Below are positions 6,714-17,697 of a DNA stretch of 34,276 nt, one piece after another; position 1 is the stretch's first letter; the number at the start of each line of letters is the position of its first letter. Both the position numbers and the translations under genes were made by a program. Origin of the DNA: Burkholderiaceae bacterium (GTDB lineage Bacteria; Pseudomonadota; Gammaproteobacteria; Burkholderiales; Burkholderiaceae_C); NCBI GenBank assembly GCA_016790515.1, contig JAEUOY010000124.1:1-34276 (forward strand), given 5' to 3'. The notes under the pieces are model-generated. The model made no database searches and was not told the origin of the DNA. It saw nothing but the letters and a program-made list of their open reading frames with translations.

Positions 6714-7913
6714 ATGCCCCTGCGAACCGACCCGATCCGCTCGACCCAGCACCGTGATCTGCTGAACGAGGCCGCCCGCGCCGCGCTCGCGCTGCAGGGC
6801 CGCAGCGCCGAGATCGAGGCCCAGCGCCACCTGCCGCAGGAAATCGCCGACGCGCTGGCCGGCGCCGGGCTGTACCGGATGCTGACGCCGCAGGTCCACG
6901 GTGGTCACGAGGTACACCCGGCCACCTTCTACGCGGTGGTCGAGCAGCTGGCCCGCGCCGACGCCGCCGCCGCCTGGTGCTGCTTCATCTCCTGCACGGC
7001 CAGCGTGCTGGCGGCCTACCTGCCCGAGGCCGAAGCCGCGGCGATCTTCGGCCGCCCCGACCTGAAGACCGCCGGCGTGTTCGCGCCGCGCGGCCGCGCG
7101 GTGGCCGCCGAGCAGGAAGGTGTGGCCGGCCTGCGGGTCACCGGCCGCTGGGCCTGGGGTTCGGGTGCACGCAATGCCGACATCGTCACCGCCGGCTGCC
7201 TGCTGATCGGCGACGACGGCAAGCCGGCGCTGCTCGCCGATGGTTCGCCGCGGGTGCTCAGCGTGGTCCTCGAGCGCAGCCAGGTCCGCTTGCTGGACAA
7301 CTGGAACAGCCTGGGCCTGTGCGGCACCGGCAGCGGCGAGTTCGAGGTCAGCGACGCCTTCGTGCCGCTGGCGCGCAGCGCTTCGCTGTTCGACGGCCCG
7401 CGCATCGACACGCCGCTGTACCGCTTCCCGGTGTTCGGCCTGCTGGCGATCGCGATCGCCGCGGTGGCCACCGGCATCGCGCGCGAGGCGCTGGACCACT
7501 TCGTCACCGAGGCCGGCCGCAGCGTGCCGCAGGCCAGCACCAAGCCGCTGGCGGCGCGACCGGTGGTCCAGGATGCGGTGGCCCGCGCCGAAGCCAGGCT
7601 GCAGTCGGCAAGGGCCTGGTTGATGGCCACGATCGACGCCGCCTGGGCTGCCGCGCAGCTGAGCGGGCCGCTGACGGTGGAACACCGGCGCGACCTGCGG
7701 CTGGCGGCCACCCATGCGGTGCAGAGCTCGGCCGAGGTCGTCGACCGCGTCTACACGCTGGCCGGCGGCGCTGCGGTGTTTGCCGCCTCGCCGCTGCAGC
7801 GCGCGCTGCGCAACGTGCGCGTGGCCACCCAGCACATGATGGTCGGCGACGCGACCTACGAACTCACCGGCCGCCTGCTGCTGGGGGTGCCGACGAACGT
7901 CGCGATGCTGTAG
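6714..7913 (+). CDS. Acyl-CoA-dehydrogenase-fold flavoprotein (HsaA/group D monooxygenase-like)
   Basis: 399 residues. The N-terminal helical domain (IEAQRHLPQEIADALAGAGLYRML), the middle beta domain (VTGRWAWGSGARNADIVTAG, then WNSLGLCGTGSGEFEV) and the C-terminal helical bundle match flavin-dependent enzymes such as HsaA and the large subunits of two-component monooxygenases. These use reduced flavin supplied by a separate reductase. No reductase gene is adjacent. True acyl-CoA dehydrogenases have a catalytic glutamate in the C-terminal bundle that I could not locate, which favours the oxygenase subgroup. Start at 6714 follows GGAGTGG. The gene lies 77 bases after the methyltransferase gene on the same strand, so co-transcription is possible. 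Confidence 0.72.
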   Translation: MPLRTDPIRSTQHRDLLNEAARAALALQGRSAEIEAQRHLPQEIADALAGAGLYRMLTPQVHGGHEVHPATFYAVVEQLARADAAAAWCCFISCTASVLAAYLPEAEAAAIFGRPDLKTAGVFAPRGRAVAAEQEGVAGLRVTGRWAWGSGARNADIVTAGCLLIGDDGKPALLADGSPRVLSVVLERSQVRLLDNWNSLGLCGTGSGEFEVSDAFVPLARSASLFDGPRIDTPLYRFPVFGLLAIAIAAVATGIAREALDHFVTEAGRSVPQASTKPLAARPVVQDAVARAEARLQSARAWLMATIDAAWAAAQLSGPLTVEHRRDLRLAATHAVQSSAEVVDRVYTLAGGAAVFAASPLQRALRNVRVATQHMMVGDATYELTGRLLLGVPTNVAML

Positions 7914-8112
7914 CGCCACGGCGCCGGGGGCAGCGGCGAGCTCGCGGCCGCCTGACGGCCTGGTCGCCTCGACGCTGCGCCGCCGCCGTACAGCTCCAGG
8001 CTGACGATGCGCCGCTGCGCTGCCGCGCGCTCGATGCGTGCCTGGGCGTCGCCGCACAGGCTGGCTCGAGGGGTGCGTGCAATGGCCGCACGGCGCAGTA
8101 CCGGGAAGACCC

Positions 8113-9123
8113 TCAGTCCAGCCATCCCCTGATCCGCGCCCCCAGCGCCTCACGGCTGATGCCATAGCGGTCGTGCAGCGTCGGCAGCGCGCCGGCGTCG
8201 AGGAAGGCATCGGGCAGTCCGGCGAGCTGGAAACCTGCGGGCTGCACGCGGTGGCGCAACAGCGCGCCGGCCACCGCCTCGCCGAGTCCGCCGATCACCG
8301 AGTGGTTCTCGGCGACGACGACCAGCCGGTGCCGGTAGCGCACCGCTTCGACGATCGCCGCCTCGTCCAGCGGCTTGATCGTCGGGCAGTGCAGCACCGC
8401 GACGCCGATCTTGTCCTTGGCCAGGTCCTGCGCCACCTCCAGCGCGCGCATCGTCAGGATGCCGCTGGAGATCACCAGCACGTCGGCGCCATCGCGCAGC
8501 AGCTTGGCCTTGCCGAGCTCGAACCGGTAGCCGTCGATCTCGTCCAGCACCAGCGGCACCTGGCCGCGCAGCAGCCGCATGTAGACCGGGCCCTGGTGCG
8601 CGGCGATCTGCGGCACGGCCTGCTCGATGTCGAGCGCGTCGCAGGGGTCGACGATGGTCAGGCCGGGGATGCCGCGCATCATCGCCAGGTCTTCGGTGGC
8701 CTGGTGGCTGGGGCCGTAGCCGGTGGTCAGGCCGGGCAGCGCGCAGCAGATCTTGACGTTCAGGTTCTCCTCGGCGATCACCTGGTGGATGAAGTCGTAG
8801 GCGCGGCGCGTGCCGAACACCGCATAGGTGGTGGCGAACGGCACCAGCCCTTCCTTGGCCAGGCCGCCGGCCGCACCCATCAGCAGCTGCTCGGCCATGC
8901 CCATCTGGTAGAAGCGCTCGGGGTAGGCCTGGGCGAACAGGTGCAGGTCGGTGTACTTGGCCAGGTCGGCGGTCAGGCCGACCACCTCGGGCCGGTTTGC
9001 GGCGTAGTCGACCAGCGCCTTGCCGAACGGCGCGGCCCTGACGCGCTGCCCTTCGGAGGCGATCGAGGCGATCATCGCCGAGGTGGTCAGGCGCGGCTTG
9101 CCTGCTGCAACGGACGTGTTCAT
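8113..9123 (-). CDS. Split transketolase, C-terminal subunit
   Basis: 336 residues corresponding to the pyrimidine-binding and C-terminal domains of transketolase. The glutamate that activates the thiamine aminopyrimidine ring is E78 (MGMAEQLLMGAAGG), and the active-site loop GPSHQATEDLA supplies H140. Together with the preceding gene it should form a heteromeric thiamine-diphosphate enzyme that moves a two-carbon ketol unit between sugars. Split transketolases are known in dedicated sugar pathways such as AptAB (apulose 4-phosphate) and SqwGH (sulfofructose), so this one need not act on pentose-phosphate intermediates. The start ATG overlaps the stop of the N-terminal subunit (ATGA, 9120-9123). 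It is the last gene of the operon. Confidence 0.87.
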   Translation of the reverse strand: MNTSVAAGKPRLTTSAMIASIASEGQRVRAAPFGKALVDYAANRPEVVGLTADLAKYTDLHLFAQAYPERFYQMGMAEQLLMGAAGGLAKEGLVPFATTYAVFGTRRAYDFIHQVIAEENLNVKICCALPGLTTGYGPSHQATEDLAMMRGIPGLTIVDPCDALDIEQAVPQIAAHQGPVYMRLLRGQVPLVLDEIDGYRFELGKAKLLRDGADVLVISSGILTMRALEVAQDLAKDKIGVAVLHCPTIKPLDEAAIVEAVRYRHRLVVVAENHSVIGGLGEAVAGALLRHRVQPAGFQLAGLPDAFLDAGALPTLHDRYGISREALGARIRGWLD

Positions 9124-9986
9124 GCGGAGGCTCCTTCGGGGCTCGCGGACGGCTGGGACTGGTCGAGGATCGCGAGGGCCTGCTGCCACTCGGGCGGGTC
9201 GACGCGGATGAAGTGGTTCTTCTCGCGCACCTCCAGGAAGGGCACGCCCTTGCCCATCAGCGTGTCGAACAGGATCACGCGCGGCCGGGCGTCCTTCAGT
9301 GCGCGCGCGGCGTCGAAGGCGTCGACCACCGCCGCCAGGTCGTTGCCCTGCACGCGCTGCACGTGCCAGCCGAACGCGGCCCACTTGTCGGCCAGCGGCT
9401 CGAAGCCGAGCACCTTGGTCGATGCGCCGTCGGCCTGCTGGTTGTTGACGTCGACCAGGCAGATCAGGTTGTCGAGCTGGTGGTGCGCGGCGGACATCGC
9501 CGCCTCCCAGGTCGAGCCCTCGTCGAGCTCGCCGTCGGACATGCTGTTGTAGACGAAGGCCGGGTTCTTCTTCTGCTTCAGGCCCAGCGCCATGCCCACG
9601 CCGATGACCAGGCCCTGGCCCAGCGAGCCGCCGGAGATCTCCATGCCCGGCGTGTAGGCGGCCATGCCCGACATCGGCAGGCGGCTGTCGTCGCTGCCGT
9701 AGGTCTCGAGCTCGCTCTCGGGAATCACGCCGGCCTCGATCAGCGCCGCGTAGTGTGCGATCGCGTAGTGGCCGTGCGACAGCAGGAAGCGGTCGCGGCC
9801 TTCCCATCCGGGTTCGGCGGGCTCGAGGCTCATCGCATGGCGATAGGCCACGGCCAGCACGTCGGCCCAGCCCAGGGCCTGGCCGATGTAGCCCTGGCCC
9901 TGGACGTCGCCCATGCGCAGGGCGTAGCGGCGGATGCGCCAGGCGGCGGCGGACAGCTCGGCGAGCCGGTCGGCGGAAATACTCAT
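9120..9986 (-). CDS. Split transketolase, N-terminal (thiamine-diphosphate-binding) subunit
   Basis: 288 residues equal to the first domain of transketolase. The thiamine-diphosphate/metal motif reads SDGELDEGSTWEA, with D151 as metal ligand and N181/N182 (VDVNNQQ) thirty residues on. SHGHYAIAHY holds H71 and H73. The usual GDG is SDG here, a common variation in split enzymes. The closing segment MGKGVPFLEVREKNHF replaces the WHG form found in full-length transketolases. It sits 28 bases after the DctM gene and overlaps the C-terminal subunit by four bases, so the two should be made in equal amounts. Confidence 0.87.
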   Translation of the reverse strand: MSISADRLAELSAAAWRIRRYALRMGDVQGQGYIGQALGWADVLAVAYRHAMSLEPAEPGWEGRDRFLLSHGHYAIAHYAALIEAGVIPESELETYGSDDSRLPMSGMAAYTPGMEISGGSLGQGLVIGVGMALGLKQKKNPAFVYNSMSDGELDEGSTWEAAMSAAHHQLDNLICLVDVNNQQADGASTKVLGFEPLADKWAAFGWHVQRVQGNDLAAVVDAFDAARALKDARPRVILFDTLMGKGVPFLEVREKNHFIRVDPPEWQQALAILDQSQPSASPEGASA

Positions 9987-10014
9987 GATTGCTCCTTGAT
10001 GTAGAGGGGTTCGG

Positions 10015-11274
10015 TCACTTCAGGATCGAGGCCGGCACGTACGAGACGAGCGCCAGCACGCTGAAGGCGACCAGGTAGAACGGGCCCAGCTCGCGCACGG
10101 TCTGGCCGACCTTGACCTTGGCGAGTGCGCTGGTGATGAACAGCGTGGTGCCGACCGGCGGCGTGTACAGGCCGATGGCCAGGTTGACGACCATCATGAT
10201 TCCGAGCTGGGTCATGTCCATGCCGATCGAATTGGCCAGCGGCACGAACACCGGGGTCAGCAGCAGCACGGCGGCCGGCAGGTCGATGAACATGCCGAGG
10301 AACAGCATCAGCAGGTTCATCAGCACGATCACCAGCCACTTGGCATGCACGTTCTGCTGCACCCAGTGTGCGATGCCCTGCGGCATCTGGTCGAAGGTGA
10401 GCAGCCAGCCGATGGCCGCCGAGGCCATGATCACCAGCAGCACCACGCCGGTGGCCAGGCCGGCATGCACGATGGCATCGTTCAGCCGCTTCCAGCCCAG
10501 GTCGCGGTAGATCAGCGCCGACACGACACCGGCGTACAGCGTCGACAGCACCGCCACTTCGGTGGGGGTGGCGATGCCGAAACGCAGGAAGACGATGATC
10601 AGCACCGGCAGCACGATCGCCGGCGACGCATAGGCCATGTGGCGGCGGAAGGCGGGCCCGTCGAACTTCGCCGTCTCGCGCGGGAAGTTGCGCCGCTTGC
10701 CGACCCACCAGCAGGCGACCATGAAGCCGCCGCACATCAGCAGGCCCGGCATCACGCCGGCGACGAAGAGCTCGGCGATCGACGCGTTGGAGGTCAGCGC
10801 GAACAGGATCATCGGGATCGACGGCGGGATCAGGATGTCGATCGTCGCTGCCGCGGCCAGCGTCGCCGCCGAGAACGCGGCCGGGTAGCCGAGGCGCTTG
10901 TGCCAGGGGATCAGCAGCGAGCCGATCGCCGAAGCGTCGGCCACCGCCGAGCCCGAGACACCGCCGAACAGCGTCGACGACAGCACGCCCACCTGCGCCG
11001 GGCCGCCGTGGAAGCGGCCGATCAGCGCCGACAGCACGCCGACCAGGGCTTCGCCGAGCTTGCCGCCCATCATCAGCGTGCCGGTGAGCATGAAGAACGG
11101 GATCGCGATCAGCGGGAAGCTCTGCACCTGCGCCACCATCTGCTGCACCAGCAGGTCCAGCGGCACCTTGTCGGAGCTGGCCGCCGCGGCCATCGCGGCG
11201 AGCAGCAGCGCGTGGGCGATCGGCATCGCCGCGACCGCGCCGGCCATGAAGACCAGGAGAATCAATGCACTCAT
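10015..11274 (-). CDS. TRAP transporter large permease subunit (DctM type)
   Basis: 419 residues, strongly hydrophobic throughout, with about 11-12 membrane helices. The family signature GVSGSAVADASAIGSLLIP is present. DctM forms the sodium-driven transport channel and receives substrate from the periplasmic DctP protein. The ATG at 11274 (MSALILLVFMAGAV) is preceded by GGAGGAAA, a strong ribosome-binding site. The longer frame adds 24 polar residues that overlap the end of the DctQ gene and is unlikely. The gene is 25 bases downstream of dctQ. Confidence 0.88.
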   Translation of the reverse strand: MSALILLVFMAGAVAAMPIAHALLLAAMAAAASSDKVPLDLLVQQMVAQVQSFPLIAIPFFMLTGTLMMGGKLGEALVGVLSALIGRFHGGPAQVGVLSSTLFGGVSGSAVADASAIGSLLIPWHKRLGYPAAFSAATLAAAATIDILIPPSIPMILFALTSNASIAELFVAGVMPGLLMCGGFMVACWWVGKRRNFPRETAKFDGPAFRRHMAYASPAIVLPVLIIVFLRFGIATPTEVAVLSTLYAGVVSALIYRDLGWKRLNDAIVHAGLATGVVLLVIMASAAIGWLLTFDQMPQGIAHWVQQNVHAKWLVIVLMNLLMLFLGMFIDLPAAVLLLTPVFVPLANSIGMDMTQLGIMMVVNLAIGLYTPPVGTTLFITSALAKVKVGQTVRELGPFYLVAFSVLALVSYVPASILK

Positions 11275-11299
11275 GTCGGTTTCCTCCGTGTCGATGTGC

Positions 11300-11827
11300 T
11301 TACCAGTGCGCCGCCGGCACCACCGGCTCCGCAGGCTGGGCGGCATCGGGCCGGGTGTGCCATGCCCGCCAGGCCGACTGCAGCGCCAGCAGGGCGAGCA
11401 GCGCCATGCCGCTCATCACGCAGCCGTAGGTGATGGAGCCGGGCAGCTGCAGGATCGGCGACTTCTCGTCGTGCACGATCTCCAGCATGCGGAACGTGGC
11501 GACCGCGAGCGTGGCGTACAGCGCCGCCACCACGCACCAGCCGACGGTGGCGACGATGCGCCGCGCGGCGGCCGGCAGGGCCTCCATCAGGAATGTCGTG
11601 GCGATGTGCGCACCGTGCTGCGCGGCGATCACCACGCCGGCGATCACCAGCCACGGGAACAGCAGCTCGGGCACTTCGTTGGCCCATTGCAGGCTGGTGC
11701 CGGTGGCATAGCGCAGCACCGTGTTGGCCACCAGGATCACGAAGATCACGCTGGTGGACAGCCACAGCAGCACGCGGCACAGGCGCTCGACGGCCCGATC
11801 GACGGGCCCTGGTCTGATTGCTTGCAT
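11300..11827 (-). CDS. TRAP transporter small permease subunit (DctQ type)
   Basis: 175 residues with four predicted membrane helices (about 18-38, 53-70, 92-115 and 132-152). The EVPELLFPWLVIAG segment is typical of DctQ, which pairs with DctM in the inner membrane. ATG at 11827 follows TAGGAG. It lies between the receptor and the large permease genes, the usual P-Q-M order for this family. Confidence 0.85.
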   Translation of the reverse strand: MQAIRPGPVDRAVERLCRVLLWLSTSVIFVILVANTVLRYATGTSLQWANEVPELLFPWLVIAGVVIAAQHGAHIATTFLMEALPAAARRIVATVGWCVVAALYATLAVATFRMLEIVHDEKSPILQLPGSITYGCVMSGMALLALLALQSAWRAWHTRPDAAQPAEPVVPAAHW

Positions 11828-11871
11828 CCTTGTCTCCTATTCGACGAAGGGCCGTGCCGGCCCTCCAGGCT

Positions 11872-12861
11872 TCAGTGCGTCTGCGCGGCGGCGACGACCT
11901 TCTTGACGTACGGCCCGATCGCGGCGGACTCCCACTTCGCGACCACGTCCGCGGTGGCCTTGGCGAAGGCCGCCTTGTCCGGCGTCGTGACCTGCACGCC
12001 CTTGGACTTGAGGTCGGCCAGCAGCTTGTCGTCGGCCTCTTGCGACAGCTTGCGCTGCAGCGCGGTGGCTTCGGCGGCGGCCTCGGTCACGGCCTTGCGG
12101 TCGGCGTCGGACAGCTTGTCCCAGCTGCGCTTGCTGATCAGGAACGGCGTCATCTGGAACTGGTGGTTTGTCAGCGCCAGGTGCTTCTGCACCTCGTAGA
12201 GCTTGCTGGCGTGGATGTTGACCAGCGGGTTCTCCTGGCCGTCGACCACACCCTGCTGCAGCGCCACGTACAGCTCGGCGAACTTGATCTGCTGCGACTC
12301 GGCGCCCAGCGACTTCATGATGTCCACCAGCGTCGCGTCGGGCGGCACGCGCATCTTCAGGCCCTTCATGTCCTCGACCTTGGCGATCGGGCGCTTGCTG
12401 TTGGTCATCTGGCGGATGCCGTTGTCCCAGGTGCCGAGCAGCACCAGCCCCTTCTCGGCGGACTTGTCGGCCAGCTCCTTGCCCAGCGGACCGTCGAGCA
12501 GCTTGAAGGCCGCGGCCGCGCTTCCGAACAGGAAGGGCATGCCGAAGGCGGCGTACTCCGGTACCGCGTTGGCGACCGCGCCCTGCGAGTTGGCGCTCAA
12601 GTCGAGCGCGCCGGTGCGCAGCGCGGTCACCATCGCAGCGTCGTCGCCGAGCTGCCCCGACGGCGCGATCTGCACCTCGATGCGGCCGCCGGACTTGGCC
12701 TTGAGCGCTTCGGCGAACTTGACGGAGGCCTCGTGGCGCGGGTTGCCGATGGCGGCGCCATGGCCGAGCGTCAACTTCAGGGTCTGGGCCTGGGCCGCGA
12801 AAGGCAGCGCGGCGATGGCGGCGGCCGCCAGAGCGGCGCGGACGAAGGTGGTGCGTTGCAT
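11872..12861 (-). CDS. TRAP transporter periplasmic substrate-binding protein (DctP type)
   Basis: 329 residues. A signal peptide covers about residues 1-26, with a cleavage site after FAAQA or AQ. The DctP pattern follows: DNGIRQMTNSKRPI, GLKMRVPP with R171 as the expected carboxylate-binding arginine, then AELYVALQQGVVDGQENP and YEVQKHLALTNHQF. The conserved arginine implies that the ligand carries a carboxylate or similar anionic group, such as a sugar acid or keto acid. This is family knowledge rather than proof. It is the second gene of the operon, 28 bases after the SDR gene. Confidence 0.88.
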   Translation of the reverse strand: MQRTTFVRAALAAAAIAALPFAAQAQTLKLTLGHGAAIGNPRHEASVKFAEALKAKSGGRIEVQIAPSGQLGDDAAMVTALRTGALDLSANSQGAVANAVPEYAAFGMPFLFGSAAAAFKLLDGPLGKELADKSAEKGLVLLGTWDNGIRQMTNSKRPIAKVEDMKGLKMRVPPDATLVDIMKSLGAESQQIKFAELYVALQQGVVDGQENPLVNIHASKLYEVQKHLALTNHQFQMTPFLISKRSWDKLSDADRKAVTEAAAEATALQRKLSQEADDKLLADLKSKGVQVTTPDKAAFAKATADVVAKWESAAIGPYVKKVVAAAQTH

Positions 12862-12889
12862 TGTCTTGTCTCCTGTTCGGGAATCGAGA

Positions 12890-13639
12890 TCAGTGGATCA
12901 ACATGCCGCCGTTCACGTCGAGCGTGATGCCGGTGCAGTAGGCAGACAGGTCGCTGGCGAGGAACACGCAGGCGCCGGCGATGTCGCTGGCACGGCCCAG
13001 GCGGGCCAGCGGGATCGACTCGGCGATCTCGGCCTTCTTGGCGTCCGTCAGCTTGCCCTGGGTGATGTCGGTCTCGATCAGGCCCGGGGTGATGCTGTTG
13101 ATGCGGATGCCGTCGATGCCGAACTCGCGCGCCATCGCCTTGGCCAGGCCCAGCACGCCGGCCTTGGCCGCCGAGTAGTGCGGGCCGCCGAAGATGCCGC
13201 CGCCGCGCTGCGCCGACACCGACGAGATGCAGACGATCGAACCGCTGCGGCCCGCCTTCATCGCCGGCAGCACCGCCTGCGACATGTACAAGGTGCCGCG
13301 CAGGCTGACGTCGAGGATGCGGTCGTAGTCGGCGCCGGTGATGTCGAGCGTCTTCACCGGCTGGGTGATGCCGGCGTTGTTGACCAGGATGTCGATGCGG
13401 CCGAAGGCCTTCAGCACCTGCGCGGCGGCGGCCTCGCAGGCAGCCTTGTCGGTGACGTCGGCGACCAGGCCGAGGTGGCCTTCGCCGAGCTGGGCGGCGG
13501 CGGCCTGCGGGTCGGCGCGCGCCAGGTCGAGGATGGCGACGCGCGCGCCTTCGGCGGCCATGCGGCGCGCGGTGGCGAAGCCCAGGCCGTTGAGCCCGGC
13601 GCCGCCGGTGATGACGGCCACTTTGTTGTCGAGAAGCAT
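12890..13639 (-). CDS. Short-chain dehydrogenase/reductase (SDR), first gene of the TRAP-transketolase operon
   Basis: 249 residues, a classical SDR. The glycine-rich cofactor loop is TGGAGLNGLG (11-20), and D38 after the second strand points to NAD rather than NADP. NNAG lies at 87-90, and the catalytic set is S140 with Y155 and K159 (YSAAK). It probably oxidises a secondary alcohol of the imported substrate or an intermediate. The ATG at 13639 follows GGAGAC; the frame open back to 13783 covers the divergent promoter and was not used. As the gene nearest the LysR regulator, it should be under that regulator's control. Confidence 0.85.
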   Translation of the reverse strand: MLLDNKVAVITGGAGLNGLGFATARRMAAEGARVAILDLARADPQAAAAQLGEGHLGLVADVTDKAACEAAAAQVLKAFGRIDILVNNAGITQPVKTLDITGADYDRILDVSLRGTLYMSQAVLPAMKAGRSGSIVCISSVSAQRGGGIFGGPHYSAAKAGVLGLAKAMAREFGIDGIRINSITPGLIETDITQGKLTDAKKAEIAESIPLARLGRASDIAGACVFLASDLSAYCTGITLDVNGGMLIH

Positions 13640-13742
13640 CGGGAAGTCTCCGAAGAAGAGTGAGGAAGCGAGGCGGGGGATCCCCGCCGGATCGACCGGC
13701 GGCCGATCCGTGGAACGAATCTTCGGATCGGGCTTGGTTGAA

Positions 13743-13785
13743 GACAAGCGAAGTCTTGTCAACGTAAGATGACGTTCTGTCATCT
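13743..13785. promoter_or_regulatory. Two perfect inverted repeats, probable LysR operators
   Basis: GACAAG and CTTGTC (13743-13748 and 13755-13760, 6-base spacer) and AGATGAC and GTCATCT (13767-13773 and 13779-13785, 5-base spacer) lie side by side in the 164-base gap between the SDR operon and the divergent LysR gene. Two adjacent dyads in a divergent LysR promoter are the usual arrangement of a recognition site and an activation site. The second dyad ends 18 bases before the LysR start codon, suitable for autoregulation. Binding is inferred. Confidence 0.5.
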
Positions 13786-13803
13786 GACCCGAGGGTTCAC
13801 CCG

Positions 13804-14688
13804 ATGGCTGCGATTCCCCCGATCACCAACCTGCAGGCCTTCGAGGCCGTGGCGCGCCGGCGCAGCTTTGCCATCGCGGCGAACGAGCTGCACCTGACGG
13901 CGTCGGCGGTCAGCCACCAGATCGCGCGGCTGGAGGACTTCCTCGGCGTGCGCCTGTTCGAGCGCAGCGCGCACGGCGTGCGCCTGAGTCCTGCGGGAGA
14001 GCGCTACCTGTCGCGCGTGGGTGGGGCGATCACCGCGCTGACGACCGCGACCGACGACCTGCGGCAAGGCCTGAGCAACAGCCTGTACGTGCATTGCGCG
14101 CCGAGCCTGGCGTCCTTGTGGCTGATGCCGCGGCTGCACGAGTTCGCGCGCGCCCACCCGGAGATCACGCTGAACCTCTCGGCCGCGCATACCCACAGCG
14201 ACTTCGCGCTCGGCCAGGCCGACATCGACATTCGCTACGGCGTGCCGAACTGGCCGGAGCTGGTGGTCGAGCCGCTGTTCGAGGAGCGCATCCTGCCGCT
14301 GGCCAGCCCGGCCTACATCCGCGACCACCGGCTGCGGCGCGTCGAACAGTTGCTCGAACTGCCGCTGATCCAGAGCAATGTCAGCGTGGTGCAGTGGTCG
14401 GACTGGTTCAGCGCCTTCACCGACAGGCGCGCGCCCGACCGCTTCAGCGTGCGTTTCGACCGCGCGCAGATGTCGCTGGACGCCGCCTCACAAGGCCTCG
14501 GCGTCGCGCTCGAGAGCGCGACCATGGCCGGCAAGCACATCAGGGAAGGCAAGCTGCGCCCGCCGTTCGGAACCGACAAGGCCATCGAGGTCAAGGCGCA
14601 TTTCGCGGTCTATCCTGCCAGGCACGGCAAGCGTCCGCCGGTCGAGGCTTTCCTGGCCTGGGTGCATGGTCAGGCGGCGAAGGGATGA
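13804..14688 (+). CDS. LysR-type regulator (GcvA-like), divergent from the TRAP-transketolase operon
   Basis: 294 residues. An N-terminal winged helix-turn-helix (NLQAFEAVARRRSFAIAANELHL with TASAVSHQIARLEDFLG) is followed by a GcvA-like effector domain that begins near residue 90. Such proteins usually activate the neighbouring divergent operon when a pathway intermediate binds. Here that operon is SDR-DctPQM-transketolase. ATG at 13804 has GAGG at 13791-13794. The 3' end converges with the next LysR gene, with 35 bases between the two stops. Confidence 0.86.
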   Translation: MAAIPPITNLQAFEAVARRRSFAIAANELHLTASAVSHQIARLEDFLGVRLFERSAHGVRLSPAGERYLSRVGGAITALTTATDDLRQGLSNSLYVHCAPSLASLWLMPRLHEFARAHPEITLNLSAAHTHSDFALGQADIDIRYGVPNWPELVVEPLFEERILPLASPAYIRDHRLRRVEQLLELPLIQSNVSVVQWSDWFSAFTDRRAPDRFSVRFDRAQMSLDAASQGLGVALESATMAGKHIREGKLRPPFGTDKAIEVKAHFAVYPARHGKRPPVEAFLAWVHGQAAKG

Positions 14689-14723
14689 ACGTGGCGCTGC
14701 GCCGTTCGGCCCGGGGCCGCTCC

Positions 14724-15686
14724 TCACCCCATGGGGTCTGCGGCCTGGCCGTCGGCCGCCACCGCCGCCTCGATCATCGCGACGAAGGCGCGGGCCGCCG
14801 GCGACAGTTCCGAGCGCTGGCGCAGGGCCAGCAGCAGCAGCCGCTCGACTTCCAGCCCGCTCAGTCGCAGCATCACCAGGTCGAGCGCACGGGTGTACAG
14901 CGCAGCCGCCGAGCGCGGCAGCACGGCCACGCCGAGTCCGCTGGCGACCATGCGGCACATCGAGTCGAAGCTGCGCACCTGCACGCGGATGCGCAGCGAC
15001 AGCCCCGACGCCTCCGCGGCCGCGATCACCTTGCGCGTCAGCGATGCGCGGCGCGCCAGTGCGATCTGGTCGAACCCGAGCGCCTGCGCCACCGGCACTT
15101 CGTGCAAGCCAGCCAGGACATGCCTGCGCGGCGTCAGCAGCACCAGTTCGTCGCGGTTGCACGGGATGGTCTCCAGGCCTTCGACCGGGACGTTGTCGCC
15201 GATCACCGCCAGCTCGAACTCGCCCTTGTGCACCGCGCGGATCGCGTCCTCGCTGAGCAGGTCCTCGAGTTCGATGCGCACCTCGGGATGCCGCTCGGCA
15301 TATTGCGCCAGCAGCACCGGCAGAAAGCCACCGAAGGCCGACGGGTTGGCACAGAGCCGCAGGTGCTCGGTGGCACCGGCGCGAAAGTCGTCGACCGACT
15401 GCGCCAACTGCTCCAGCCTGGAGATCACCTCGACCGCCAGGCGGTGCACGGTCTGACCTTCGCGGGTCGCCGACACGCCGCGCTGACCTCGCTGCAGCAG
15501 CGCGACACCGCAGTGTTGCTCCAGTTCGGCGACACGCTTGCTCGCCGCCGCGAGCGAGATGCCGAAGCGGTTGGCTCCCGCGGTGAGGCTGCCGGCGTCG
15601 AGCGCGGCGACGAACAGGCGCAGCGTGACGAGGTCGAAGCGGTTGAGGTTGATCACGGCGACTTCACACGGCGACTGCGGGCTCAA
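14724..15686 (-). CDS. LysR-type regulator, divergent from the Bug receptor gene
   Basis: Up to 320 residues. The helix-turn-helix lies at about residues 16-60 (FDLVTLRLFVAALDAGSLTA through SKRVAELEQHCG), followed by a periplasmic-binding-protein-like effector domain. The start is uncertain. The longest frame begins at TTG 15686, while GTG at 15656 (protein starting INLNRFDLVTLR) places the helix-turn-helix at the normal distance from the N-terminus. Neither has a convincing ribosome-binding site. It faces the tctC-like gene across a 101-130-base gap and is the natural candidate to control it. Confidence 0.8.
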   Translation of the reverse strand: MSPQSPCEVAVINLNRFDLVTLRLFVAALDAGSLTAGANRFGISLAAASKRVAELEQHCGVALLQRGQRGVSATREGQTVHRLAVEVISRLEQLAQSVDDFRAGATEHLRLCANPSAFGGFLPVLLAQYAERHPEVRIELEDLLSEDAIRAVHKGEFELAVIGDNVPVEGLETIPCNRDELVLLTPRRHVLAGLHEVPVAQALGFDQIALARRASLTRKVIAAAEASGLSLRIRVQVRSFDSMCRMVASGLGVAVLPRSAAALYTRALDLVMLRLSGLEVERLLLLALRQRSELSPAARAFVAMIEAAVAADGQAADPMG

Positions 15687-15741
15687 CGGCCGGGAAAGGA
15701 GTCCTCAACGGATCGTGAATGGCGCCGCCGAGGCAATGGAT

Positions 15742-15769
15742 GAAGCATAGAGGCTTCTGCGCAATGCGC
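15742..15769. promoter_or_regulatory. Small dyads between LysR and Bug receptor genes
   Basis: GAAGC/GCTTC (15742-15746 with 15753-15757) and GCGCA-A-TGCGC (15759-15769) lie in the divergent gap just upstream of the receptor gene. They may be the LysR binding region, but their short length means chance occurrence in this GC-rich sequence is possible. Confidence 0.25.
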
Positions 15770-15787
15770 CGGAAAACAGGAGAACCC

Positions 15788-16756
15788 ATGACCCGCTTCC
15801 TCTCGTTCATCGCGCTGGCCGCTGCATTCACCGGCGTGGCGCCCGCCGCCGCCCAGTCGTGGCCGAGCCGGCCGGTGACCGTGATTGTTCCCTTTCCCGC
15901 CGGCGGGGGCACCGACGCCTTCGCCCGACCCTTGTCGGCACAGCTGACGAAGCAGCTCGGCCAGCAGCTCGTCATCGAGAACCGCGGCGGCGCCGGCGGC
16001 AACCTCGGCGCCGGCATCGCGGCCAAGGCAGCCCCCGACGGTTACACCTGGTTCATGGGCGGCGTGCACCACACGATCGCGCCGTCGGTCTATCCGAAGC
16101 TCGACTACCACCTGGCCAACGACTTCGTCCCGGTGGCGCTGGTCTCGAGCGTGCCGCAGGTGATCGTCGTCAACCCGAAGAACATCGCGGCGACCGACCT
16201 GAAGGGGCTGATCGCCTACCTCAAGGCCAACCCCGGCAAGGTGAGCTACGGCTCGGCCGGCAACGGCTCGTCGCATCACCTTGCGGGCGAGCTGTTCAAG
16301 GCGCAGACGCAGACCTTCGTCATCCACGTGCCCTACCGCGGCGCGGGTCCGGCGCTGCAGGACCTGATGGGCGGCCAGGTCGACATGATGTTCGACGGCC
16401 TCGGCTCGTCGGCCAACCACATCAAGGGCGGGCGGCTGAAAGCGATCGCGGTCGCCGGCGACAAGCGCGCGCCGGGCTTCGCCGACGTGCCCACTGCGGC
16501 CGAAGCCGGCCTTCCCACCTACAAGGTCAGCACCTGGTACGGGCTGTGGGCGCCGAAGGGCACGCCCGCGCCGGTGGTCGAGCGCATGGCCAGCGAACTG
16601 AAGAACGCCTTCGCATCGAAGGAGCTGCAGGCGGCTTGGGCCAATCTGGGCGCCGAGCCGCCGACGCTCGTCGGCAAGGCCTTCGGCGACTTCGTCGCCG
16701 GCGAGACCAGGCGCTGGGCCGACGTGGTCAAGGCCGGCAACATCAAGGCCGACTGA
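15788..16756 (+). CDS. Tripartite-tricarboxylate (Bug/TctC) periplasmic receptor, orphan
   Basis: 322 residues. A signal peptide covers about 1-25 (MTRFLSFIALAAAF, ending PAAAQ). The Bug-family pattern follows: WPSRPVTVIVPFPAGGGTDAFAR, QQLVIENRGGAGGNLGA, APDGYT, and later VPYRGAGPALQDLMGGQVD. These proteins bind small carboxylates in the periplasm of Betaproteobacteria and are often encoded without the TctA/TctB membrane subunits, as here. ATG 15788 follows AGGAGA. The gene ends only 20 bases before the mdcR start, so it may be co-transcribed with the malonate regulator. A malonate-sensing or malonate-binding role is therefore possible but unproven. Confidence 0.87.
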   Translation: MTRFLSFIALAAAFTGVAPAAAQSWPSRPVTVIVPFPAGGGTDAFARPLSAQLTKQLGQQLVIENRGGAGGNLGAGIAAKAAPDGYTWFMGGVHHTIAPSVYPKLDYHLANDFVPVALVSSVPQVIVVNPKNIAATDLKGLIAYLKANPGKVSYGSAGNGSSHHLAGELFKAQTQTFVIHVPYRGAGPALQDLMGGQVDMMFDGLGSSANHIKGGRLKAIAVAGDKRAPGFADVPTAAEAGLPTYKVSTWYGLWAPKGTPAPVVERMASELKNAFASKELQAAWANLGAEPPTLVGKAFGDFVAGETRRWADVVKAGNIKAD

Positions 16757-16776
16757 TCCTCTCCGGGCGAGGCGCC

Positions 16777-17697
16777 GTGGGCACCCGATCGCCGCTCGGC
16801 GACGAGATCAGCTTCCGCAAGCTGCAATCGCTGCTCGCCTTCATCGAGACCGGCAACCTCGCACGGGCAGCGGAGCGGCTCGATACCTCCGCCGTCAGCA
16901 TTCACCGTGCACTGCATTCACTCGAGGAGGCCCTGAGCTGCCCGCTGTTCCAGCCGAAGGGGCGGCAGCTGGCGCCCACCGATGCCGCGCTCGAACTGGC
17001 CGATGCCGCGCGCGACGTGCTGCGGCGCATGTCCGAGGGCATCCGCGCCACGCGCGAGGCGGCCGGCTACGGCAGCGACCGGCTGCGCATCGGCTCGCTG
17101 TTCTCGCTGACCAGCCGCACCGTGCCGAGGGTCGTCATCGCGCTGAAACGCCGGCGCGAGGACCTGCAGGCCGAACTCGTGCTCGGCTCCAACGCCGACC
17201 TGCTGCAGAAGCTGCGCGCCGGCGAGATCGATGCGGCGCTGATGGGTCACCTCGGCGGCGACCGCGACATCGAAAGCGAAGTCCTGTTCGAGGACGAGAT
17301 CGGCTTTGCCGCGCCGACCCGATCGCCCTACGCGCGCCAGACCGCGGTCGACCTGGCCGACTGCGCCGAGGACCGCTTCGTCAGCCTCAGCGAGGGCTTC
17401 GTCACCTTCGAGGGATTCACCGAAGCCTTCCGCATCGCCGGCTACGCGCCCCAGGTCGTGATGCGCACGGGCGACATCTTCTCGTTGATGAACCTGGTGC
17501 AAGGCGGTGTGGGCTGCACGCTGCTGCCGGGCCGGATCCGCCCGGCTCTGCCCGAAGGCGTGACGCTGGTGCCGCTGGCCGCGCCCTTTCGCATGCGTCA
17601 GTCGATCGCGCTGCACTTCCTGCGCCGCCGCGAACGAGACCCCAATCTGCTCGCCCTGCTGGCCATCTGCCGCAGCACCAGGGGCGAGCTCTCATGA
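16777..17697 (+). CDS. mdcR: LysR-type regulator of malonate utilisation (MdcR-like)
   Basis: 306 residues from a GTG start at 16777. The helix-turn-helix is LQSLLAFIETGNLARAAERL followed by SAVSIHRALHSLEEALS. The effector domain carries ALMGHLGGDRDIESEVLFEDEIGFAAP. MdcR activates malonate decarboxylase genes in the presence of malonate. The assignment rests on position directly upstream of the carrier and mdc genes, together with MdcR-like features such as the SIHRALHSLE recognition helix. GGGCGAGG lies upstream of the start. The gene shares the strand of the mdc operon rather than being divergent. Confidence 0.75.
   Translation: MGTRSPLGDEISFRKLQSLLAFIETGNLARAAERLDTSAVSIHRALHSLEEALSCPLFQPKGRQLAPTDAALELADAARDVLRRMSEGIRATREAAGYGSDRLRIGSLFSLTSRTVPRVVIALKRRREDLQAELVLGSNADLLQKLRAGEIDAALMGHLGGDRDIESEVLFEDEIGFAAPTRSPYARQTAVDLADCAEDRFVSLSEGFVTFEGFTEAFRIAGYAPQVVMRTGDIFSLMNLVQGGVGCTLLPGRIRPALPEGVTLVPLAAPFRMRQSIALHFLRRRERDPNLLALLAICRSTRGELS

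Follow-up and report, generated by a model that had tools for sequence, protein, structure and literature searches.

Two-subunit transketolases dedicated to a single catabolic substrate are known from two pathways. AptAB serves a plant-sugar pathway, and its phosphorylated donor, apulose 4-phosphate, is made by an isomerase and a kinase. In the sulfofructose pathway, SqwGH takes a two-carbon ketol unit from an unphosphorylated acidic donor and passes it to glyceraldehyde 3-phosphate (PMC11659671; papers are cited throughout for the passages available of each). Here we describe a six-gene operon encoding a short-chain dehydrogenase (SDR), a complete tripartite ATP-independent (TRAP) importer and a split transketolase, in a stretch of 34,276 nucleotides (the window) from contig JAEUOY010000124.1 of the Burkholderiaceae assembly GCA_016790515.1. 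Compared by description and not by sequence, the operon shares a dedicated split transketolase with both systems and, as we propose, an unphosphorylated acidic donor with SqwGH; it differs from the latter in an SDR where that pathway begins with an isomerase, in a TRAP importer where import is most likely by an ATP-binding cassette (ABC) transporter, and in a carboxylate in place of the sulfonate. It differs from AptAB, likewise compared by description only, in that isomerase and kinase are absent. A first-pass annotation of the window had held that neither locus has this composition, and our scans bear this out: the operon genes include no kinase and no isomerase (open reading frame list and Pfam), and the ten scanned genes from 6714 to 16756 include neither a sulfoquinovose isomerase nor a sulfo-specific gene.

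Three further systems resemble parts of the locus. The best solved relative of the N-terminal transketolase subunit is 6yak (207.6 bits), the N-terminal component of a split-chain transketolase with the same division into subunits. Uptake of sugar acids by a TRAP system is described for CxaP of Advenella (7bbr; PMC5812351, PMC11668362), which binds several sugar acids made from several sugars, and which we compare through the binding protein only. The engineered, single-chain E. coli TktA variant R358I/H461S/R520Q is reported to have 55.3% enhanced activity on 5-ketogluconate, an unphosphorylated keto-aldonate (PMC12016104).

Our preferred reading, to which we give a probability of about 0.4, is that the operon serves the catabolism of a free, plant-type five-carbon sugar acid (aldonate) by way of a keto-aldonate, ketol transfer and glycerate. 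The case is fairly strong for an aldonate as the class of substrate, and moderate to weak for the C5 chain length and the C3 product. The importer DctPQM would bring in the aldonate, and the SDR would oxidise one hydroxyl with NAD+ to a keto-aldonate whose ketone lies next to the carbinol carbon. The split thiamine pyrophosphate (TPP) enzyme would cleave that bond with no kinase step, keeping the two-carbon ketol unit for an aldehyde acceptor. A C3 oxo-acid would be released, tartronate semialdehyde from a linear pentonate oxidised at C4 or hydroxypyruvate from a branched substrate, and would pass through glycerate to 2-phosphoglycerate by enzymes that some of the homologous operons encode and that this genome has at other places. 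On this reading the operon works like the SqwGH and AptAB pathways with a dehydrogenase in the place of isomerase and kinase. If correct, it would reveal a new way of eating sugar acids and a natural transketolase family that cuts unphosphorylated keto-aldonates and shares two of three residue losses with the engineered TktA; it would also assign a role to hundreds of genes that at present are simply labelled transketolase, SDR or DctP, and provide natural catalysts by which sugar acids could be turned into semialdehydes. Searches of the open-access literature, outside which subscription journals largely lie, listed no paper giving this operon a substrate and none, judged by title or abstract, on an operon of a split transketolase with TRAP, SDR or LysR genes. 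A homologous operon already tied to a defined substrate, which would contradict the first-pass annotation, did not appear there.

Operon layout and conservation of the neighbourhood

The six genes lie on the minus strand in the order SDR, DctP, DctQ, DctM, TK-N and TK-C, with a divergent LysR gene on the plus strand. Coordinates come from the list of open reading frames and our own codon-score gene caller, several starts being approximate, and the Pfam scores of all operon domains far exceed the cut-offs. The SDR (12890..13639, 249 amino acids; PF13561, adh_short_C2, 220 bits) most likely starts at 13639 rather than 13783, since its length is then 249 residues against 250 in the closest solved relative. 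DctP (11872..12861; PF03480, 302 bits; TIGR00787 above cut-off), DctQ (11300..11827, for which the gene caller favoured a later start at 11773; PF04290, 95 bits) and DctM (10015..11274; PF06808, 377 bits; TIGR00786 above cut-off) form a complete set of solute receptor, small permease and large permease, with the conserved carboxylate-binding Arg and with NCBIfam support for DctP and DctM and Pfam support for DctQ. The two transketolase genes are adjacent and divide the enzyme in the known manner, TK-N (9120..9986, 288 amino acids) carrying Transketolase_N (PF00456, 138.4 bits) and TK-C (8113..9123, 336 amino acids) carrying the pyrimidine-binding Transket_pyr (PF02779, 107.6 bits) and Transketolase_C (PF02780, 85 bits) domains. 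The regulator (13804..14688, plus strand; LysR_substrate PF03466, 111 bits; PF00126, 79 bits) is GcvA-like, scoring 256.6 bits with the GcvA subfamily model, below its cut-off of 288. TK-N and TK-C overlap by 4 bases, the other gaps measure 28, 25, 44 and 28 bases, and 164 bases separate the SDR from the LysR gene. The first-pass annotation had described six tightly packed minus-strand genes with these spacings, coding for a dehydrogenase, a DctPQM importer and a two-gene transketolase beside a divergent LysR regulator; the coordinates match the former and Pfam upholds the latter.

To place the operon among its relatives we assembled 138 loci with flanks, the window included. The genome loci are the best 80 of at least 573 candidates confirmed by tblastn in species genomes, so that near relatives are over-represented; some may come from the same or sister species, although all 132 TK-N sequences used for alignment differ. 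Six loci were dropped, two as too short (L042, L092) and four without a usable TK-N gene call (L095, L127, L171, L177), of which L095 and L127 nevertheless show the genes in their record annotation. Neighbourhood counts refer to the 122 gene-called loci, again including the window, with TK-N at least 60% identical and with seven genes considered on either side; L062 and L091 hold further relevant genes beyond that limit, and L091 does have an SDR. Labels of gene clusters (c8, c10 and so on) were each derived from a scan of one or two members.

TK-C lies in the same-strand run as TK-N at all 122 loci and the SDR at 111, more than chance would give for the grouping reported in the first-pass annotation; DctP does so at 92 and DctM at 93, and a LysR gene lies within seven genes of TK-N at 101. 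The enzymes are better conserved than the transporter, with median identities to the window, among labelled genes, of 81% for TK-N and TK-C, 76% for the SDR and 63% for DctP and DctM. Importers replace one another from locus to locus: 95 loci have TRAP alone, four TRAP with a sugar-type ABC system and one TRAP with a major facilitator superfamily (MFS) protein, while six have a D-galactonate-type MFS protein alone, three a metabolite:H+-type MFS protein, two ABC alone and one ABC with MFS; in ten loci, some of them short contigs, no importer was seen. The best models for the MFS proteins that replace TRAP are those of the D-galactonate transporter and the metabolite:H+ symporter, all below cut-off. 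Varied transporters around constant enzymes point to an aldonic acid or its lactone as the substrate. This comparison, which the first-pass annotation had proposed, confirms that the operon is real; what that annotation had overlooked is its wide spread, its diverged active site and the further genes in homologous operons that constrain the product.

The split transketolase active site

The transketolase alignment holds the 122 main and six more distant sequences, four other split transketolases, 22 full-length transketolases from neighbouring genes (cluster c8) and the two ordinary full-length transketolases of the host genome (5.0 Mb in 176 contigs, 82% complete), on contigs C83 and C75. Because the genome has these two ordinary enzymes, a housekeeping role for the split transketolase was rejected. 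Residue numbers are those of E. coli TktA placed by motif, with R358, H461 and R520 given also in the TktA paper (PMC12016104). All 128 main and distant sequences keep H66, D155, N185, H261, E411, H473 and R520, among them the TPP-binding Asp and Asn (D155, N185) and the catalytic Glu (E411). In the same 128, H100 is replaced by Ser, the GDG motif by SDG, H461 by Leu and D469 by Tyr; H26 is Tyr in 127, with a gap in the remaining one. The site of R358 falls in a gap of the automatic alignment, and by motif it could be read in 126 sequences, where it is never Arg but Ala in 92, one Lys and mostly Pro, Ser or Glu in the rest. The two ordinary transketolases of the genome keep all five of H26, H100, R358, H461 and D469. 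Judged by these five donor- and phosphate-site residues the family does not qualify as a canonical sugar-phosphate transketolase, while its place in the transketolase superfamily stands.

R358 and H461 are two of the three positions altered in the engineered TktA, so that nature has altered two of these three in the present family. GDG is present in all four of the other split transketolases, and His26 and His100 in three of them; the changes at positions 26 and 100 and in the GDG motif thus set the present family apart. In canonical transketolase H26 and H100 touch the donor ketol. The first-pass annotation had proposed that the SDR makes a ketone that is then cleaved by two-carbon transfer; the order of steps agrees with the indirect evidence, whereas ketol transfer itself is less certain, because two donor-site histidines are also lost.

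The full-length transketolase c8 adjoins 20 of the 122 loci (for example L062:16527-18506 and L025:11865-13853). Its 22 copies have R358 changed to Ile (21) or Met (1), S385 to Cys (21) or Ala (1) and D469 to Asn (22), and from these residues it looks like a dedicated non-phosphate transketolase. In L025 a tannase/feruloyl-esterase family gene (13850-15550) overlaps this second transketolase by 4 bases, a hint at ester-bound plant sugar acids.

Substrate class and products

The SDR has the catalytic triad S142, Y155 and K159 in 113 of 113 sequences, as well as conserved Rossmann glycines, and a conserved pocket loop SAQRGGGIFGGPHY with Arg145 (113/113). Asp38 is present in all 109 sequences with a residue at that place, which suggests NAD+ as the probable cofactor. 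Residue 112, which we take, by motif, to be the place of the fourth catalytic residue (Asn in helix 4 of classical SDRs), is Ser in 75 of the 113 sequences, including that of the window, and Asn in 38. The closest solved structure is 7krk (346.6 bits), and only the glucose 1-dehydrogenase subfamily model NF005559 exceeds its cut-off (218.9 against 215 bits) among the 25 of 229 NCBIfam matches listed. A fatty-acid (FabG) role was thought unlikely, no FabG model reaching its cut-off among those 25 matches, and it is further disfavoured by the constancy with which the SDR accompanies the split transketolase. The SDR of a split-transketolase locus in an Acinetobacter baumannii record (L127:4338-5087) is nearly identical to 7krk and 7krm (513 bits); the label of these two structures, 3-oxoacyl-ACP reductase (FabG), is probably wrong, and no paper mentioning either was found in the open-access literature.

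In DctP, R171 is invariant in 57 aligned proteins chosen from the 92 collected. An alignment-based AF2 model of DctP reached a mean pLDDT of 90.5 (a single-sequence fold only 42), and the protein is 36-38% identical to 7bbr (36%), 4pdh, 4pdd and 4pak, with TM-scores of 0.87 against 7bbr, 4pdh and 4pak. The DctP from Herbaspirillum matches the solved 4oan at 387 bits, whose ligand is probably acetolactate, and the Paracoccus DctP has no solved relative at E 1e-60. According to the paper on IseP, the ligand in 7BBR is 2-keto-3-deoxygluconate, and in further structures of the related group it is pantoate or erythronate, in most cases co-purified (PMC11668362).

Enzymes for lactones are found beside several relatives. 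A fuconolactonase-like amidohydrolase (c34; PF04909 above cut-off, the NCBIfam lactonase model well below) occurs in L080, L142, L143 and L148, and an SMP-30/gluconolactonase-like protein (c47; PF08450 above cut-off) in L032, L101 and L141. In L143 and L148 one run reads SDR-TKN-TKC-DctPQM-ABC-lactonase; L032, with transketolase subunits 84-90% identical to those of the window, has a sugar-type ABC system and an SMP-30-type lactonase and no TRAP within its 13.7 kb; and in L080 (81-88% identical) ABC, lactonase and transketolase share a contig of 4.9 kb. Uptake of a neutral lactone through a sugar ABC system and its hydrolysis by a lactonase, next to an importer of the acid, are the expected look of an aldonate/lactone pathway. 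We infer an unphosphorylated substrate with a carboxylate, as the first-pass annotation had done from R171; the invariance of that residue, the galactonate-type MFS matches (below cut-off), the loci with lactonase and ABC and the lost phosphate-site residues all lend indirect support. On the distant branch (TK-N 52-56% identical), enolase-superfamily proteins occur in L154, L155, L172 and L175, with acid-sugar-dehydratase models below cut-off for the first three and none for the L175 protein scanned; in L154 there are, in addition, genes for a dehydrogenase of the Gfo/Idh/MocA type, a fused sugar permease, a sugar ABC system and a GntR/LacI-type regulator.

The product side can be read from accessory genes. 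The beta-hydroxyacid dehydrogenase c10, which matches best, below cut-off, the models for L-threonate dehydrogenase and for tartronate semialdehyde reductase, lies near 19 of the 122 loci and in the same run at 17. A D-2-hydroxyacid dehydrogenase (c11) lies near 11, nine of which also have the second transketolase alongside, and in the same run at six; a glycerate-kinase-like gene of MOFRL type (c24; Pfam above cut-off, glycerate 2-kinase models below) lies near six and in the same run at five. The runs in L168 and L169 read SDR-TKN-TKC-DctP-DctQ-DctM-c11-c24, and that in L062 TKN-TKC-SDR-DctP-DctQ-DctM-c10-c8-c11-c24; the loci with c24 include close relatives and amount to about four lineages rather than independent cases. 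The combination of a 2-hydroxyacid dehydrogenase and a glycerate-kinase-like gene in some operons suggests a C3 oxo-acid product and glycerate. Contig C102 of the window genome brings together, in some 4.3 kb, gcl (glyoxylate carboligase), tartronate semialdehyde reductase (above cut-off) and a gene of the glycerate kinase family. Among linear pentonates the most suitable substrate would be D-arabinonate or L-xylonate, by our own reasoning from the donor stereochemistry of ordinary transketolases; ascorbate breakdown yields L-xylonate, L-lyxonate and their lactones (PMC11066805).

Several observations weigh against this reading. Among the four other split transketolases His461 is present in one only and Asp469 in none, with R358 aligned in two, so that part of the loss of the phosphate site may, from the alignment, belong to split enzymes generally. 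R520, the third engineered position, is changed in the TktA variant and kept in the split family, and H26 and H100, unchanged in the variant, are lost here; with both histidines gone the chemistry may differ, and a TPP reaction other than ketol transfer is possible. The fold of DctP singles out no ligand, since sialic-acid binders reach a TM-score of 0.85 against the model and other entries rank higher in a second comparison, and the erythronate and pantoate binders among its relatives (PMC11668362) could mean a C4 substrate. The genes c24 and c11 lie near only six and 11 of the 122 loci, and the operon of the window has neither. A DAK-type kinase in six of the 122 loci, a TIM-barrel gene in seven and an RpiB-like isomerase in three suggest a tetrulose (erythrulose-type) intermediate, for which a linear pentonate gives no explanation. 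A C6 substrate would be in keeping with the PaoABC-type aldehyde oxidoreductase annotated immediately past the LysR gene in L100 (1162-4970), whose gene clusters also have members close to the loci of L027 and L028.

Some of these points could be met by a tentative, on balance doubtful, form of the C5 reading in which a transketolase-based, kinase-free pathway serves D-apionate or another branched C5 acid close to it. The SDR would make 3-oxo-isoapionate, HOCH2-CO-C(OH)(CH2OH)-COO-, itself a transketolase donor. Its cleavage would give hydroxypyruvate, to be taken up by a 2-hydroxyacid dehydrogenase and a glycerate 2-kinase as in L168 and L169, and its spontaneous decarboxylation would give erythrulose, accounting for the DAK kinase, TIM-barrel and RpiB-like genes of some relatives. 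Apionate is similar to erythronate and pantoate, the ligands in related binding proteins. We rejected erythrulose, made by two donors condensing through free glycolaldehyde and followed by a DAK kinase, as the general product, because Dak1 is present in seven of 27 TK-N-positive genomes and in two of nine negatives.

The rival to the C5 reading that survives best, unlikely as we hold it to be, is that the split TPP enzyme is no ketol transferase and instead takes an alpha-keto acid from the SDR and acts on it by decarboxylation or ligation, like acetolactate synthase, DXS or an E1 subunit. The near-complete replacement of H26, H100 and GDG, in a family whose split relatives mostly keep them, speaks for it, and the methylamine-dehydrogenase-type genes between TK-N and TK-C in L173 and L174 hint at an unusual aldehyde partner. 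Yet the family retains H66, H261, H473, E411, R520, the TPP-binding Asp and Asn and the transketolase division into subunits, and the best solved relative is a split transketolase.

Next comes a C4 acid, which we consider doubtful: D-erythronate or L-threonate would be oxidised at C3 and the split transketolase would release glyoxylate into the glycerate pathway. Both acids have the carbinol configuration needed in a transketolase donor (again our own stereochemical reasoning), the relatives of DctP include the erythronate and pantoate binders already mentioned, and the window genome has gcl and tartronate semialdehyde reductase. However, gcl occurs in only nine of the 27 TK-N-positive genomes against five of the nine negatives, none was seen among the annotated neighbour clusters, though no search there was aimed at it, and the 2-hydroxyacid dehydrogenase and glycerate-kinase-like gene within operons suit a C3 product better. 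On erythronate or threonate with transketolase, a search of the open-access literature listed one plant review.

A C6 acid seems improbable. Here gluconate or idonate would be converted to 5-ketogluconate, from which cleavage would give tartaric semialdehyde and an aldehyde-oxidising enzyme tartrate. The experimental parallel for transketolase acting on a keto-aldonate is 5-ketogluconate (PMC12016104), a reaction also proposed for plants (PMC11066805), and this route would fit the 2-keto-3-deoxygluconate held by the related binding protein 7BBR (PMC11668362), the gluconate/galactonate-dehydratase-like genes (below cut-off) of distant relatives and the PaoABC-type genes beside the locus in L100 and those of the same clusters in L027 and L028. 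Against it, no NAD-type aldehyde or tartrate dehydrogenase was found among the recurrent clusters annotated (many clusters were left unannotated), and glycerate-level genes recur instead.

Orthology with AptAB or SqwGH is highly improbable, for although the two-subunit architecture is the same and some relatives have sugar-type ABC importers and DAK, RpiB-like or TIM-barrel genes, the window lacks kinase and isomerase, the family has no Arg at R358, and H26, H100 and R358, if not H461, are present in a Cryobacterium split transketolase whose genes do adjoin RpiB and TPI genes. A further pair bears on this comparison: in R. leguminosarum two transketolases (RL2718-19) lie beside a CUT2 system and its binding protein, with an SDR nearby, and are induced on alfalfa and by arabinogalactan (PMC3333776); they are possibly related and may offer a hint on the present family, the link being conjectural.

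Spread and neighbouring genes

Beyond the candidates in species genomes, plasmid records gave 193 TK-N matches at E 1e-50. At the stated cut-off TK-N was found in seven of 300 genomes of the order (the own genome included; one at 44% identity), in 24 of 398 of the phylum (again with the own genome; two at 54-56%) and in 11 of 337 of an alphaproteobacterial set (four at 52-54%). Besides Beta-, Alpha- and Gammaproteobacteria the range takes in at least one actinobacterium, and large plasmids carry many of the copies; named hosts include Hydrogenophaga, Ramlibacter, Variovorax, Herbaspirillum, Azospirillum, Rhizobium, Sinorhizobium, Pantoea, Klebsiella, Acinetobacter, Paracoccus, Sulfitobacter and Arthrobacter. 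The operon type is widespread and apparently without earlier characterisation. Copies in L095, L101, L125 and L126 lie on plasmids typed as conjugative, partly with other transporters. In a Klebsiella pneumoniae plasmid record (L097:4904-8817) a version of the order MFS-SDR-TKN-TKC is flanked by a cecR-type regulator region and by rhlE/dinG/ybiB, surroundings that look chromosomal in origin.

On the distant branch L173 and L174, alphaproteobacteria of one genus, are exceptional in having genes between TK-N and TK-C. In L173 (10090-13417) these are, by Pfam, a methylamine-dehydrogenase heavy chain, MauE, a thioredoxin-like protein, a light chain and a cytochrome c, and in L174 (9932-11101) a scanned methylamine-dehydrogenase heavy chain followed by four further unscanned open reading frames. 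A DRL-type oxidoreductase (PF21135; one member scanned) lies within seven genes in six loci, sometimes divergent from TK-N, with seven members overall (for example L144:10001-11353, L150:216-1556 and L025:2762-4120).

In the window itself, an acyl-CoA-dehydrogenase-like flavoprotein gene (6714-7913; best NCBIfam model an HsaA-type monooxygenase, below cut-off) is convergent to the operon and formed no cluster with genes of other loci. Beyond the regulator of the operon, the interval 14724-17697 holds a second LysR gene, a TctC-type solute receptor and then, by eye, a third LysR-like open reading frame.

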